The position numbers were made by a program, and so were the translations under genes. Shown piece after piece: positions 1-21,287 of a stretch of 21,287 nucleotides of DNA. The stretch covers positions 1 to 21,287 of the IMG/VR virus record IMGVR_UViG_3300007619_000014, one strand, 5' to 3'. The notes beneath the pieces were generated by a model. The model saw nothing but the letters and a program-made list of their open reading frames with translations, searched no databases and had not been told where the DNA came from. Source of the stretch: a virus. Each line of letters starts with the position of its first letter. Within the stretch, counting starts at the first letter, position 1.

Positions 1-190
1 GTCACCAGTGTCATCATCAATGAATAGTGATGTTGCTTCAACAGAACCATTCTCATATCTTTGCAATAAAAATCCAGGATTTCCAGATTTGCTCCCATCT
101 CTCAATGCCCAAATATCACTTCCCCCATCCTGTAGCCTTATCTCATCATTAAAAAATGCTGTGCTTGTAACATGTAAATTGTCAGTTATA
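1..190 (-). repeat. Second copy of fibre repeat (468-bp spacing)
   Basis: This segment repeats 469 to about 658 at an offset of exactly 468 bp (156 codons). Positions 1-85 and 469-553 differ at a single base (16 against 484). Identity then falls over the next 100 bases. The copy is cut by the window edge, so it may extend further left. Confidence 0.9.
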
Positions 191-1254
191 TAAACATCTG
201 GTGCACTTATTGAAGATGTTGTTGATAGCTCATTTGAACTGTCAACTGTCCAATCACCATCTAAACCTGAACTATTAATCGTTATTGAACCATTTGATCC
301 GGTTGTAATACTAATTCCACTTCCTGCTATCAAATAAGATGTTCCGTCTCTCAAGTGAGTAAGAGAGCCAGTCAAAGCATCAGATATTACTATCGCTAAA
401 CCAGAATCGTCCCCAACTGTCAATGTAGGAGACGAACTTGTTAAGTCTAAATTTGCTTCAATCTCCATGTCACCAGTGTCATCGTCAATGAATAGTGATG
501 TTGCTTCAACAGAACCATTCTCATATCTTTGCAATAAAAATCCAGGATTTCCAAGTTTAGAACCATCACTCAATGACCAAATATCACTTCCTCCATCCTG
601 TAGTCTTACTTCGTCATTAAAAAATGTTGTACTGGAAACATATAAATTATTTAAAACATATAAATCTTGAGTGGATACGTCTCCAGTGAATGTGCTGCCA
701 GAAATTGTTGCAACAATATTATCATTTATTCCCAAAACAACAGTTGAGCCAGCACCATTATCAGTTAAAATAAGTCCAGTACCTTCAGTTAAAACTCTTT
801 CCTGCGATAAATCTCCGTCTGTAGCTAAAGTAACATATTGAACATCATTTGGAGCAAAAGAAGTAACGCTTATTGTTATATCATTAGAACCAGAAGCTAC
901 AGTAACATTAGTTCCTGCCGAAATTGAACGAAACTTTAAGTCTACACCAGACTTATAAGAGAATAAACCTTCTCCTGATCCTAAATTAGATGCCGTATTA
1001 GCTTCGCCACTAAAACTAGGTCCAGTTGCAGAACCTAAAACACTTAAATTTCCAGAAATTACAGTTGTTGAATCAGAACACTCAGAAATTAATGGACCCT
1101 TAACCCGAAGAGTTCCTACACAATTATCAATTCCGATTTGAACTTCAGACTGAGGAAATATTTGTTTTTCAATTTTGCCAGTTTTTTTATTTTTAATAAG
1201 CAAATTTGGCAAAAATGCAACATCTTTCTTTTTTATTTTACTTCTGCTTGACAT
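1..1254 (-). CDS. Tail fibre protein, 5' part (runs off the window edge)
   Basis: An open frame starts at ATG 1254-1252 and stays open for 418 codons to position 1, so the 3' end lies outside the window. A competing ATG at 1258 hits a stop after six codons. The N-terminus is basic (MSSRSKIKKKD). Residues about 86-130 carry the common phage-fibre pattern ASNLGSGEGLFSYKSG followed by a SAGTNVTV-like stretch, and residues about 138-190 carry QYVTLATDGDLSQERVLTEG, another recurrent fibre motif. Residues 204-262 and 360-418 are two copies of one repeat, 52 of 59 residues identical and 156 residues apart. Between them, LDLTSSSPTLTVGDDSG matches repeats of the fibre gene at 4771-6918. The family is trimeric, beta-rich host-recognition fibres; which host receptor it binds is unknown. 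It lies 21 nt downstream of the 845-residue gene, with no clear Shine-Dalgarno. Confidence 0.8.
   Translation of the reverse strand, partial: MSSRSKIKKKDVAFLPNLLIKNKKTGKIEKQIFPQSEVQIGIDNCVGTLRVKGPLISECSDSTTVISGNLSVLGSATGPSFSGEANTASNLGSGEGLFSYKSGVDLKFRSISAGTNVTVASGSNDITISVTSFAPNDVQYVTLATDGDLSQERVLTEGTGLILTDNGAGSTVVLGINDNIVATISGSTFTGDVSTQDLYVLNNLYVSSTTFFNDEVRLQDGGSDIWSLSDGSKLGNPGFLLQRYENGSVEATSLFIDDDTGDMEIEANLDLTSSSPTLTVGDDSGLAIVISDALTGSLTHLRDGTSYLIAGSGISITTGSNGSITINSSGLDGDWTVDSSNELSTTSSISAPDVYITDNLHVTSTAFFNDEIRLQDGGSDIWALRDGSKSGNPGFLLQRYENGSVEATSLFIDDDTGD
469..658 (-). repeat. First copy of fibre repeat
   Basis: This is the partner of the repeat at 1-190. It encodes residues about 204-262 of the truncated fibre, including SDIW, GNPGFLLQRYENGSVEATS and LFIDDDTGD. 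The near-absence even of silent changes in the C-terminal part of the unit points to recent duplication or gene conversion. Confidence 0.9.
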
Positions 1255-1275: not shown

Positions 1276-3813
1276 TTATTCTGATACGATATCAGTATCT
1301 GGATAAGATGCTACAGATCTATTTCGCGGAACCCCGTCCTCATACCACAAACTACTCGTAGCTTCAAAGGATGTATTTTGGCTATCTGTATCAAATGGAT
1401 CGGGTAATGAAAATTTAATTTGAACTGGAGACGGAACAATTGTTCCATTATCCTTAATTGTTTTATAATCTTTTCTCTGTTCTAACATATCTGCTGGCAT
1501 TCCTCGATAAATATCGTGACGAAAAATTGCCTTAGGAGCTACAGATCTATAACTAAACAACCCCCTCTTAACTCCTCTAGTTATTACATTATAATATGCT
1601 GCTTGTCCAAAAGCCGTTCCCTGTCTTTCAGTAATTTCTGTTTGTCCATGAAATTTTGATGAATTTTCATAAAATCCTCTTGAAAATCCATATACAGACT
1701 TTCTTAATAGTAGATCTGAAATAAACCCGTTTGTTGGTTCACTAACTAAACTTATATTATTATTCATTTCTACAAACGCATCATCAACTTCGGGATCGGT
1801 TGGAGTAGCTTGAGCATTTTTAATTGGATTTCTTCCACGATCAACGTCAGAATATCGAGGCTCAAATGCAGCAGCCCTAAGAAATGTTGTATTAGAACCA
1901 TCTGAAAAAGCATATTTGATTGCCGGAGGAGAAAACGACAATGCTACTCCGTCAGCTCTAAAGACCTGATCTAATCTTGGCAATAAACAATCATAAATAA
2001 CTGAATTTTCCTCAGATAATTGAACCCCTCTAAAAAAAGAAGAACCAGATGTAGCTCTTGCTAATTCAGCAGAAGAATTTGCAAATCCAGACAAACTAAC
2101 AGAAGAACCAGCAACTACCCTATTGGGGATTGTTCCTGTCACTACGTCGTCAATATATGATCCTGAAAATAATGTTCTTGGGTTAAACAGATATTCATCC
2201 AAAGAAGGATTAGAAAAAAGAGATTCATGAACAGAAATTGAAGTTAGTGGTTGATTGAGTGTATCGTGATATTCCGACTTATCTTTAATTAAAGATCCAT
2301 AAATTTTAATTCTAGCAGGACCATTAAATATAAAAGGGTGCCTTGCCGATTGCGCTTCAATATCAGATATCTGTCCACAAAAACAAATAAGAAGTTTATC
2401 TTCAGGGCTCAATATATAAGGGGATACTGAAAAATGATCTGAAGTTCCCACTATATTTTCATTTAACGTTGAAAATGTTGTTTTTTGGGATTCAGATCCC
2501 ATTGTTGATACTGAAGCTATATAATTCCTTCCCGAAACATTTCGATCAACATCAGTGTTATTGAATATATTATTTGCCCCACCGAATTCACTTTTAACAG
2601 CATACAAATCAGAATCATCATTTCTTTTTCTATGCCATCCCATAATGTCTGTTATTTTTGGAATTCGAGGAGTAAATTCTAAAGTAAATGTACCTGTAAT
2701 GCCAGATGATGAATAATTCGTTCCAGAAATCGTTAAATCTCTTTCAAAAAAAGATGCTGGCCTAGCAGTTGATGGGGTGTGATTTATAACCGAAATCAAT
2801 CCGTACCCCACAAAATCCTTTGACTTTCCAACCGAATGAGTAACAGCATTAGTAACTAAACTAGCACCATTATTTATAGTTTCTTTCATTCCAATTGTAA
2901 TATTTTTATTAATTTGTGGATTGTTAAATTGATTTAATACATATAGAGAATAAATTTGTTGTGATTCATCTGACGTACCTGTATTCGGCATTGAACAAGA
3001 AAATTCAAAAACCATTTTTTCAACTAAAAATGGATGAGATAATGTTCCAGTTAAAGAAAATAATTGAGATGATGTAGCATCAAATTTAGAAGCAAAAGGA
3101 AATCCAAAATCTGTAATTGGATATCCAACATTTTGAATAATATTGTCATTATTAGCGATATCAGGTCTAGCAGTAGTAAAAACAGCTAATGGTGCTGTTG
3201 CCCTAGGATCTGAACTATCCTCAACATAATTTACGCTACTTCCAGTAGACAAATTTCCTATTGCTTCCCATCTTTTTAAATTAAAATTATAATAAGAAAG
3301 TCCAGAGTTTACTTCAGATACGGTTTCTCCTGTGGACCAAAAAATACTGCTACTTTGTTGAGAATTTAACTCTACCGTAAATGACGTTTTACTTCTAAGG
3401 GGAGATGTAAAATTTGTACCGATTATATTATGATCCGTTCCTGTTAGATAAAATCTTGATGATTTATTTTGTTCAAATAAACCATCCTCTATAAATGGTC
3501 CATTTTGTTGTCCTGGATTATTGAATTCAACAAAATTATCAGCTATGCCCTTTTTTACATTTCCGGGAGTATATATTGTACTACTTAGCTCTGTTTTTAA
3601 ATATTGTGAAGCAGTTGGTAATGTTGTGGGGTAACTTACAAAATTTGAAGATGTAATAAAATCCACAGTTTTACTATCATCAAAAAAAGAAGAATACTTG
3701 CCAGTTCTATTATCGCCAGTTCTAGCTATTGTTGGATAACTTCCTGTTAAATTGTCCCTTTGTCTTAATATTACTCTTGGAGGAAGATTTTTTATTTTAG
3801 TCTTTTTTACCAT
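1276..3813 (-). CDS. Large virion structural-type protein, unrecognised
   Basis: An 845-residue protein I do not recognise. It is rich in Ser, Thr, Gly and Asn, with many SGS and TGS turns and predicted beta character, as in the tail and fibre proteins around it. The N-terminus is basic (MVKKTKIKNLPPRVILRQRD). A distinctive stretch from residue about 709 has conserved-looking aromatic and basic residues (GFSRGFYENSSKFHGQTE, then FRHDIYRGMPADMLEQRKDY). There is no signal peptide or membrane segment. Its ATG follows the TAA of the 292-residue gene directly (TAAATG), so the two are probably translationally coupled and may form one assembly. A role as a virion or tail component is inferred from composition and its position between fibre genes. 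A host-surface enzyme cannot be excluded, but no catalytic motif was seen. Confidence 0.75.
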   Translation of the reverse strand: MVKKTKIKNLPPRVILRQRDNLTGSYPTIARTGDNRTGKYSSFFDDSKTVDFITSSNFVSYPTTLPTASQYLKTELSSTIYTPGNVKKGIADNFVEFNNPGQQNGPFIEDGLFEQNKSSRFYLTGTDHNIIGTNFTSPLRSKTSFTVELNSQQSSSIFWSTGETVSEVNSGLSYYNFNLKRWEAIGNLSTGSSVNYVEDSSDPRATAPLAVFTTARPDIANNDNIIQNVGYPITDFGFPFASKFDATSSQLFSLTGTLSHPFLVEKMVFEFSCSMPNTGTSDESQQIYSLYVLNQFNNPQINKNITIGMKETINNGASLVTNAVTHSVGKSKDFVGYGLISVINHTPSTARPASFFERDLTISGTNYSSSGITGTFTLEFTPRIPKITDIMGWHRKRNDDSDLYAVKSEFGGANNIFNNTDVDRNVSGRNYIASVSTMGSESQKTTFSTLNENIVGTSDHFSVSPYILSPEDKLLICFCGQISDIEAQSARHPFIFNGPARIKIYGSLIKDKSEYHDTLNQPLTSISVHESLFSNPSLDEYLFNPRTLFSGSYIDDVVTGTIPNRVVAGSSVSLSGFANSSAELARATSGSSFFRGVQLSEENSVIYDCLLPRLDQVFRADGVALSFSPPAIKYAFSDGSNTTFLRAAAFEPRYSDVDRGRNPIKNAQATPTDPEVDDAFVEMNNNISLVSEPTNGFISDLLLRKSVYGFSRGFYENSSKFHGQTEITERQGTAFGQAAYYNVITRGVKRGLFSYRSVAPKAIFRHDIYRGMPADMLEQRKDYKTIKDNGTIVPSPVQIKFSLPDPFDTDSQNTSFEATSSLWYEDGVPRNRSVASYPDTDIVSE

Positions 3814-4692
3814 TTATCTCTTAAGTCCTCCAAAAGCTAACGAATCCGTCCCTATAGTTGTATTATTTCTATACGTATATCCTGCTGCTGATGACTTGTA
3901 TCCTTTGGGTCTAAAATCATTGTCCTTGCTACCCGTCATATCTCTAAGCGCATTATCTACAACACTAACGCTTGTTAATTTATCTGCGTCAGGAGCTCCA
4001 CTAAACAAAGTTTCAGGTCTACTATCATCAAATGGATGTATTATTTTTGTGTTATCATCCCCCTTTGAGGAAGTAATAAACAATTCTACTGATCCAGCTA
4101 TTAAATCTCCACGATGACCAACATTATCGGAGAATGGATCTTTTTTTAACGAAGAACTAACAGGAATAAATTGCATAACACTATCAGACCTTAAGAATAT
4201 ATCTTCATTTCCACCCTGTAAAGAAGCTCTTATATTATTCCTAAAGTATGGATAATCAATTGATTCAAATTTTATTGCCTCCCGAATAACTAATGGTTCA
4301 ATAGCTCCGAATTTGTCTATTTCAGGAGTAGATGACTTAAAATCAACACCAGCATTTTTTGATATTTGCAAATAAAGGGCGGGAGAGAACTTGTCTGAGT
4401 CAGAATAAGGGGTTCCTTCACTTTCTATTGTTGGAGGTTGACCAAATACGCTTTGCTCTATTTCGTGAGAAATTGTTCCAGTTATACTGCTTCTCAAATT
4501 ATTGTCTTTCTGTCCTGAATTTATTCTTAATAATAATCCTGAATATCTTTGTTTGTTTGTTCTTACAGATACTCCTTGTCGAAAATCATCAAAAGCTCTT
4601 CGAGAACGAATTAAAGTTCCGGCTGAAGACGTTAAGGTCACCACGCAAGTAGCTACTCCCCATTCGTGATCCCAATAACATCCCCAAACCAT
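3814..4692 (-). CDS. Virion structural-type protein, unrecognised
   Basis: A 292-residue protein with no family I recognise. It opens with an unusual Trp/Cys-rich segment (MVWGCYWDHEWGVATC), followed by a polar, mixed-charge body with beta-type and turn-rich stretches, for example LLLRINSGQKDNNLRSS, and a Gly-rich C-terminus. The start is the ATG at 4692-4690. The gene is preceded by a purine-rich AGGGGAAG about 12 nt upstream and by one of the few real gaps in the operon (78 bp), which may hold a promoter. It abuts the 845-residue gene downstream (TAAATG), suggesting a paired function. Placement among fibre and baseplate genes suggests a virion component, possibly an adaptor or fibre-associated protein. 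That role is inference only. Confidence 0.7.
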   Translation of the reverse strand: MVWGCYWDHEWGVATCVVTLTSSAGTLIRSRRAFDDFRQGVSVRTNKQRYSGLLLRINSGQKDNNLRSSITGTISHEIEQSVFGQPPTIESEGTPYSDSDKFSPALYLQISKNAGVDFKSSTPEIDKFGAIEPLVIREAIKFESIDYPYFRNNIRASLQGGNEDIFLRSDSVMQFIPVSSSLKKDPFSDNVGHRGDLIAGSVELFITSSKGDDNTKIIHPFDDSRPETLFSGAPDADKLTSVSVVDNALRDMTGSKDNDFRPKGYKSSAAGYTYRNNTTIGTDSLAFGGLKR

Positions 4693-19811: not shown

Positions 19812-21089
19812 TTATAATACATTCATATTCCACTTTGGGGGACGTCTTTTTCTCCAATTTTCAATAGTGTCTTCTATTGTTCTGTCCCAAGTCCCAATAA
19901 CTTTTTCTCCACTAAAGTGTTTTAATACATATTCTCTTCCTCTTTGTCCAATTTCTGACCTTTTTTCTGGGCCCATCTTATACATTTTCATAAATGCATC
20001 AGCAATTGACTCAACTGAAGCGTAATCCTCATAAATGTATGGAGTCATCTGGGACCCCACTAAAGTTCTAAAGTCTGGATCTAAAGCAATTCCATTGTGA
20101 ACTTCTGGCTTATTTTCCAACAATTGTTTCGCTTGAACCGTTTGTCCACCAGTGCAAACAGAAACAATAGGAATTCCACACTGCAACGAAATTGTTGTAC
20201 CAAGACCCCACCCTTCATTAAAAGAAATGTTCACATAAAAATCTGAAATGTTATGTAAAACGTTCATCTGAGCGAATTCAATCGCTGACGTAGAAAAACA
20301 AATATTATCTGCTATTCCCAACATATCAACTACTTCATATAAATTTGGACCTTCCATATCAAGAGGGTCGGTATGTAAAATAAGAATGGCTTTTCTATGC
20401 CCCTCTTCTTTTTCTAATTTATCAATAAATTTTTTCCATGACCACATTAAATCTGATGGTCTTTTTCTTTTTGCGTTTCTATTCGTCCACAGCCCAACAA
20501 ACCAATCTTTTTTATCTTCTCCAATCATTTTTACTTTAGCTTCTTGCCTTGTTACATTGTCAAGTGGATAATACATATCTTGTGGGAAAAAATGAGGAGT
20601 AAAATTTACCTTATGTTTTTGATTCTCTGGCAAATTATCTTTTAGCATGTTATAGGTCAAATGCGAAATACAATTAAGCAAATCTACACTTTCATATATG
20701 GGCATATTGTACTTAGGAAATGGAAATTCGTCCCAAATTTTATTATAAAGAATTGGACATTGTTGATGTACCTCATCTTCCATTTCAAATAGGTACATAA
20801 AGAATCGTGGATCATTAAAAATCAATATGGCATCGGGTCTCTCTGTAAAAAGAAGATATCGTATTAACTCTGGATTACCAAAACCGTCAATTGGTTTGAT
20901 AACAAAATCTTCATTTACCTTAATTGTTTCATAATTTTTATGACGCTTAGCACACCCTAAAGATCTAAAGGTGTACTTTCCAGTATTTATAAGTCCATTA
21001 ACTAAAAATCTAGATTGACATCCAACTCCCGAGATACTTAACGGATGATCTGAAATCATTAAAATCTTCTTTTTTTTATTATTGTCCAT
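19812..21089 (-). CDS. GT-B glycosyltransferase, group 1/GT4-like (first copy)
   Basis: A 425-residue GT-B glycosyltransferase and the first complete gene of the operon. The N-terminus is KILMISDHPLSISGVGCQSR, with the acceptor-side loop S-G-V-G at 20-23. The donor-side motif is FNEGWGLGTTISLQCGIPIV at 290-309, followed by SVCTGGQTVQAKQLLE. The C-terminus has REYVLKHFSGEKV, the usual closing helix. The start is the ATG at 21089-21087, with AAGG 10 nt upstream. There is no signal peptide, so it should act in the host cytoplasm. A sugar-nucleotide donor is expected for the family; the acceptor is unknown. Confidence 0.88.
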   Translation of the reverse strand: MDNNKKKKILMISDHPLSISGVGCQSRFLVNGLINTGKYTFRSLGCAKRHKNYETIKVNEDFVIKPIDGFGNPELIRYLLFTERPDAILIFNDPRFFMYLFEMEDEVHQQCPILYNKIWDEFPFPKYNMPIYESVDLLNCISHLTYNMLKDNLPENQKHKVNFTPHFFPQDMYYPLDNVTRQEAKVKMIGEDKKDWFVGLWTNRNAKRKRPSDLMWSWKKFIDKLEKEEGHRKAILILHTDPLDMEGPNLYEVVDMLGIADNICFSTSAIEFAQMNVLHNISDFYVNISFNEGWGLGTTISLQCGIPIVSVCTGGQTVQAKQLLENKPEVHNGIALDPDFRTLVGSQMTPYIYEDYASVESIADAFMKMYKMGPEKRSEIGQRGREYVLKHFSGEKVIGTWDRTIEDTIENWRKRRPPKWNMNVL

Positions 21090-21165
21090 ATGTATTATAC
21101 CTTGACTGTTTTTTGTTTTTCCTGTAATATAATAACATTATATCCCATAAAGGAAAACTTTTAAA
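21090..21165 (-). promoter_or_regulatory. Leader of the operon with possible -10 boxes
   Basis: This 76-nt AT-rich leader precedes the first glycosyltransferase. Minus-strand TATAAT appears at 21142-21137 and 21099-21094; neither has a good -35 box 16-18 nt upstream. The TTGACT beginning at 21170 is 22 nt from the first box, too far for a normal sigma-70 promoter. A promoter is expected here if the operon starts at this gene, but none is convincing. Confidence 0.25.
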
Positions 21166-21173
21166 GTCAACTA

Positions 21174-21194
21174 CCCCCATGACAAGCATGGGGG
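21174..21194. repeat. Perfect 8-bp hairpin with 5-nt loop
   Basis: CCCCCATG (21174-21181) pairs fully with CATGGGGG (21187-21194) across a five-base loop. It is the strongest inverted repeat noticed in the window and stands out as GC-rich within very AT-rich DNA. Confidence 0.95.
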
Positions 21195-21245
21195 CTTAAA
21201 AGGAGTACAAAAGCCAATTGGAAACAATTAAGACTAAACAGTTGA

Positions 21246-21287
21246 CTAGACTACGGAATGTGTTTGTACAAGTCCAAACTGAATCAA
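21246..21287 (-). CDS. Possible last 13 codons of a gene upstream (tnpB?)
   Basis: A minus-strand frame entering from the window edge reads LIQFGLVQTHSVV and stops at TAG 21248-21246, about 75 nt before the presumed element end. TnpB genes usually finish within the right-end scaffold, so the position fits, but 13 residues carry no family signature. A second frame is also open from the edge (to about 21195), so the choice is uncertain. Confidence 0.2.
   Translation of the reverse strand: MIQFGLVQTHSVV

Follow-up and report, generated by a model that had tools for sequence, protein, structure and literature searches.

A probable IsrB-type OMEGA element cut by the contig end of a large tailed phage, upstream of a glycosyltransferase and baseplate operon

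The window analysed here is the whole of IMG/VR virus record IMGVR_UViG_3300007619_000014 (21,287 bp), and there is nothing beyond 21287 into which it could be extended. The major neighbouring genes are encoded on the minus strand, among them those for baseplate wedge proteins and two glycosyltransferases, so that the earlier note's description of the right-hand end as beside a phage late operon is a fair one. The glycosyltransferase encoded at 19812-21089 has relatives in large phages at 33% identity, and a protein search of viral contigs returned no close relatives. Phages related to the window by both this glycosyltransferase and a baseplate protein are Flavobacterium phage immuto, Microcystis phage Mel-JY01 and the 484-kb phage LR756508. 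The last of these (LR756508.1) has ten TnpB matches and a single HNH-bearing IscB (L025-L032 and L045), a heavy load of RNA-guided nuclease genes. At the other end of the window (1-1254, minus strand), the contig boundary truncates an ORF with a long internal repeat, in which two slightly different copies of a stretch around GNPGFLLQRYENGSVEATSLFIDDDTGD are present. The features at the right-hand end are:

19812-21089, minus strand: glycosyltransferase, first gene of the adjoining late operon (PHROG 2170, E = 4.8e-5)
21102-21130, plus strand: promoter-like TTGACT-17-TAATAT just 5′ of the guide, a possible omega-RNA start (9/12 consensus; weak)
21137-21165, minus strand: promoter-like TTTAAA-17-TATAAT for the glycosyltransferase operon, overlapping the guide (10/12 consensus; weak)
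21146-21165, plus strand: predicted 20-nt guide CATAAAGGAAAACTTTTAAA, the phage DNA that adjoins the scaffold on its 5′ side (placed as in DtIsrB, PMC9581776)
21166-21287, plus strand: predicted 5′ part of the omega-RNA scaffold, also the transposon end (covariance model R1; cut by the contig end)
21166-21172, plus strand: 5′ strand of stem S1 (GTCAACT), pairing with 21240-21246 in the minimum-energy fold
21174-21194, plus strand: hairpin SL1 (CCCCCATG-ACAAG-CATGGGGG), the transposon-end hairpin of the earlier note (fold and covariation)
21216-21229, plus strand: hairpin SL2 (AATTG-GAAA-CAATT; minimum-energy and centroid folds)
21240-21246, plus strand: 3′ strand of stem S1 (AGTTGAC), followed by a conserved CTAG (fold and covariation)

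Promoter-like sites occur in this region in about the number expected by chance, and both of those listed are weak.

The window end had been read in the earlier note as the right end of an IS200/IS605-type element, with a GC-rich hairpin followed by TAGTTGAC and a TnpB effector just outside. The hairpin is present as described. On the minus strand, 21195-21165 reads GCCCCCATG-CTTGT-CATGGGGGT-AGTTGACT, a near-perfect GC-rich hairpin and then TAGTTGAC (the hairpin portion, 21195-21166, being GCCCCCATG-CTTGT-CATGGGGGT-AGTTGAC), and the 148-nt end folded as single-stranded DNA gave z = -3.1, with 1 of 200 shuffles folding equally well. A scan of viral contigs for the pattern GCCCCC(N8-20)GGGGGTAGTTGAC returned 16 matching contigs, which supports an end of the IS200/IS605 superfamily. 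Confirmed tnpB ends are among those that share the signature. In L007, L008, L016, L017 (two copies) and L018, the hairpin lies 6-9 nt past the stop codon of an ORF whose product ends in a TnpB-type zinc finger, and Pfam identifies the ORFs of L008 and L018 as TnpB. Judged from its sequence, the combination of hairpin and TAGTTGAC is a genuine IS200/IS605 signature, but it does not tell the effector class; present in the window and common to confirmed tnpB ends, it is not TnpB-specific.

In contig L005, the DNA inside the hairpin resembles that of the window, and the contig likewise breaks there. Contigs commonly break within repeated mobile elements, which would explain why the window contig and L005 both stop inside the same RNA. 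Exact and gapped hairpin patterns had no match in viral contigs, no contig overlapping the last 21 bases of the window was found, and the window end had no match in Rfam or in a DNA search of phages and plasmids. L022 (Treponema; the single match of a pattern scan of genome contigs), on reading, and L024 were judged to be chance matches.

A pattern drawn from the 92 nt inside the hairpin found a match in L023. There, the same interior sequence accompanies a different yet base-paired hairpin (ACCTCT/AGAGGT) upstream of a 342-aa gene, and the orientation of RNA and gene is opposite to that required for TnpB. IsrB lacks HNH and is a relative of IscB and Cas9, forming a minimal RNA-guided DNA-nicking system. 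The L023 protein can be assigned to IsrB by sequence: it belongs to the RRXRR family (Pfam, E = 1.2e-39) and aligns with IsrB of Desulfovirgula thermocuniculi (DtIsrB; PDB 8dmb; PMC9581776) over residues 11-309, nearly full length (E = 2.2e-44), whereas IscBs align only in their N-terminal part. Relatives of the L023 protein are found in viral contigs, in phages (including the 485-kb LR745208) and in cyanobacterial plasmids, and the same RNA is located upstream of isrB in six more loci (L034, L035, L037, L040, L041 and L042). In all seven linked loci, the RNA is directly upstream of an RRXRR-family gene of the IsrB type. HNH is missing from all six intact linked proteins scanned by Pfam, while the IscB of LR756508, as control, has it; the isrB copy of L042 (Calothrix) is a pseudogene with stops.

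Several of these loci have features of their own. The L023 contig encodes a GIY-YIG/NUMOD3 homing-type endonuclease approximately 0.8 kb from isrB (features at 251-1006 and 1850-4254), and the L023 omega-RNA adjoins a phage tail-tube gene (PF18906). A hairpin, TTTCCTCCCA...TGGGTTTCC, is common to L034, L036, L040 and L042 just past the isrB stop and is probably the other transposon end. In L034 (IMGVR_UViG_3300035659_001198, 2211-2290), the transposon-end hairpin GTCAACTACCCAC...GTGGGCT occurs twice in tandem, 34 nt apart, upstream of isrB. The Microcystis phages MaMV-DC, LMM01, CH01, DH01 and CH02 carry three to four extra tandem omega-RNA 5′ ends (GTCACTAACCCCGCCCTAAGGCG...) before isrB (L038 1181-1400; L039 1206-1370; L050-L052 upstream of isrB). 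These copies are 28-38 nt apart, their number and short tails vary among the phages, and the arrangement looks like a degenerate, CRISPR-array-like multi-guide layout.

The RNAs of the seven isrB-linked loci (L023, L034, L035, L037, L040, L041 and L042) were aligned without the window, and a covariance model, R1, was made from them with S1 and SL1 given as structure. In a search space of 232 kb of loci, all 108 positions of R1 matched the window at 21166-21287 on the plus strand (61.7 bits, E = 1.9e-12), a match that recurred in a second R1 search; L005 scored 49.1 bits (E = 1.9e-9). The training loci are few (n = 7), and both E-values are rough. TnpB ends scored at most 8.8 bits, in the hairpin part only, or had no match. 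The R1 search found no match in L045, the only IscB omega-RNA locus tried, and LR756508, immuto and Mel-JY01 gave no omega-RNA match that was significant. Local alignment of the window interior gave z = 8.5 for L033 (same contig as L023), 6.5 for L037, 5.8 for L035, approximately 4 for L040 and L041, 2.3 for L034 and 0 for L042; L005 reached z = 8.0, TnpB loci gave 0 to 2.9 and the IscB locus L045 gave -0.1. Single-locus alignments are thus strong for some isrB loci and weak for others, so that the profile carries the argument. By this homology, the last 122 nt of the window (21166-21287, plus strand) are the 5′ part of an IsrB-type omega-RNA scaffold. The TnpB effector of the earlier note is not borne out, as the 92-nt interior matches the isrB-linked omega-RNAs of seven loci and no TnpB right end tested.

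Folded alone, the plus strand of the window forms S1, then SL1 (21174-21181 with 21187-21194), then SL2 (21216-21220 with 21225-21229), and all three are intact. In the alignment including the window, 86% of S1 and SL1 cells are paired, against 33-48% in slid versions, and eight S1 and SL1 pairs show two-sided changes, in a structure taken from the same sequences on which the covariation was counted. Such changes were counted in three pairs of S1 (nine sequences) and in four of the five pairs counted for SL1. The middle of S1 is mismatched in L005, L034 and L035.

Similarity among the homologous loci ends exactly upstream of GTCAAC. DtIsrB takes as its guide the 20 nt that immediately precede the scaffold (PMC9581776), and in the window the flanking DNA beside the transposon end, which is single copy there (21146-21165), is very likely the guide. 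To that extent the readable guide of the earlier note stands, while its strand does not. Since the RNA is homologous to isrB-linked omega-RNAs, it is read on the plus strand with CATAAAGGAAAACTTTTAAA as guide, the reverse complement of the guide first proposed, TTTAAAAGTTTTCCTTTATG. The TAM also changes sides: in place of TTGAT on the 5′ side, analogy with DtIsrB (PMC9581776) suggests that it would be NTGA, 3′ of the target in the empty site. The target would be the empty site in related phages, beside the promoter-like sequence of the glycosyltransferase/baseplate operon. No such site in related phages, where the earlier note had expected one, was found for the window's element in the searches made; around isrB in LR745208 and in the Leptolyngbya plasmid, every locus recovered was either occupied or a homologous isrB locus. 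In the homologues, isrB starts approximately 170-270 nt after the scaffold start, and the gene would thus begin here on the plus strand approximately 50-150 nt past 21287. Its predicted product would be of about 350 aa with PLMP/RRXRR and RuvC and lacking HNH, features that the linked loci do show. No coding sequence is therefore expected in the window, and its absence is uninformative. Also off the contig are the rest of the omega-RNA (SL5, pseudoknots and nexus), the far transposon end and the TAM.

DtIsrB is alike in having its omega-RNA upstream of isrB on the same strand with a 5′ guide. Its guide-adaptor region has the S1-SL1-SL2 order of the window, with SL1 formed by the transposon end in both; SL1 of DtIsrB is dispensable for nicking and may serve transposon mobility (PMC9581776). 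The proteins linked to the window's RNA homologues align over nearly the whole length of DtIsrB. Unlike DtIsrB, the window holds only the first 122 nt of the scaffold with the protein out of view, its group is that of phages and cyanobacteria, and the likeness of the two RNAs is one of layout and stem order. A low-infectivity strain of cyanophage Mic1 gained the host isrB at an ATGA motif, with 207 bp upstream and 59 bp downstream included (PMC11237433). Mic1 is alike in that isrB and about 207 bp of upstream DNA were inserted in a phage genome, but its insertion was of host origin and interrupted a tnpB-like gene, whereas the window's element sits between genes beside the late operon. Phage LR745208 is also alike: an RNA of this family (68.7 bits) precedes an isrB that is 64% identical to that of L023. 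The Microcystis phages LMM01 and MaMV-DC have isrB, but their RNAs, with 5′ ends in tandem, were unmatched by R1 (12.5 bits, elsewhere in the genome).

Most probably, the contig breaks off within an IsrB-type OMEGA element, a member of the IS200/IS605 superfamily that has inserted into a large tailed phage a short way upstream of a glycosyltransferase/baseplate operon, a reading to which we assign a probability of roughly 0.88. TnpB elements of the IS200/IS605 superfamily are similar in terminal hairpin style, in the TAGTTGAC end and in a guide taken from DNA flanking that end, but differ in having the ORF on the other strand, ending at the hairpin, the guide at the RNA 3′ end, and an unrelated interior. 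If the window held a TnpB right end, tnpB would be on the minus strand just outside it with the guide TTTAAAAGTTTTCCTTTATG at the omega-RNA 3′ end, and a minus-strand small RNA ending in TTTAAAAGTTTTCC would be expected, where IsrB predicts a plus-strand RNA. The shared hairpin and TAGTTGAC would fit, as would the ten TnpBs of the related phage LR756508 and one minus-strand frame that runs 29 codons without a stop until a TAA immediately ahead of the hairpin, in whose visible part there is no recognisable TnpB feature. However, the interior is unlike tnpB 3′ ends (8.8 bits or no match; z of 0 to 2.9 against 8.5 for the best isrB locus) and matches isrB-linked RNAs in the opposite orientation, which makes a TnpB element extremely unlikely. 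An IscB element, with HNH and double-strand cleavage, would have the same orientation and guide as an IsrB element and the same layout of an upstream omega-RNA with the guide at its 5′ end, and the IscB of LR756508 is preceded by GTCAACGACCCCCGAATAAATTCGGG. Against this, the locus of that IscB, the one IscB locus compared, lacks an R1 match and aligns at z = -0.1, while in seven of seven loci with a matching RNA the linked gene is an IsrB-type RRXRR gene, the six intact proteins scanned being without HNH. We consider IscB very unlikely.

The omega-RNA could instead be stand-alone or decayed, without an isrB of its own, and either serve an IsrB encoded elsewhere, in trans, or have no activity. 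The coding part does lie outside the visible sequence, and stand-alone omega-RNAs are known for IscB (PMC9581776). Yet isrB follows the RNA in all seven homologues, albeit as the L042 pseudogene in one, and the intact S1, SL1 and SL2 of the window speak against decay, so that this explanation is also unlikely. The probability of an ordinary phage intergenic hairpin or terminator is close to nil: the hairpin is labelled terminator-like by a scanner, but its tail is AGTTGACTTT with no T run, the homology spans 122 nt and occurs in unrelated plasmids and phages, and the relatives LR756508, immuto and Mel-JY01 are without a significant omega-RNA match.

For an IsrB-type element at this site, a mechanism can be proposed whose functional steps are modelled on one studied relative, DtIsrB. 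A transcript would carry the flanking phage DNA at 21146-21165 as a 20-nt guide and would bind IsrB. The guide-loaded IsrB would then nick the non-target strand at the empty allele, in which an NTGA-like TAM would come after the guide sequence. In the occupied copy, GTCA comes after it instead, and this would protect that copy from nicking. Where related phages or genome copies meet, nicks in empty alleles may favour recombination through which the element is copied or kept. As the guide overlies promoter-like sequence of the glycosyltransferase/baseplate operon, the element might also nick or silence that region in element-free related phages during mixed infection. That the phage keeps the IsrB nickase element as such a homing or competitor-control device is a doubtful proposition, and we regard it as rather improbable.

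IsrB and its omega-RNA are known, as are phages that carry IsrB and a cyanophage into which it has inserted; the window end is a new truncated example in a large phage. Both the effector class and the guide strand are corrected here, and any experiment at the site depends on both. A large tailed phage is added to the known locations of IsrB, from which IscB, and through it Cas9, likely descends. The gathered loci provide a covariation-supported model of the phage/cyanobacterial group of IsrB omega-RNAs, with which elements cut off by a contig end can be recognised. Should the homing use prove true, the element would represent an RNA-guided analogue of the homing endonucleases of phages.
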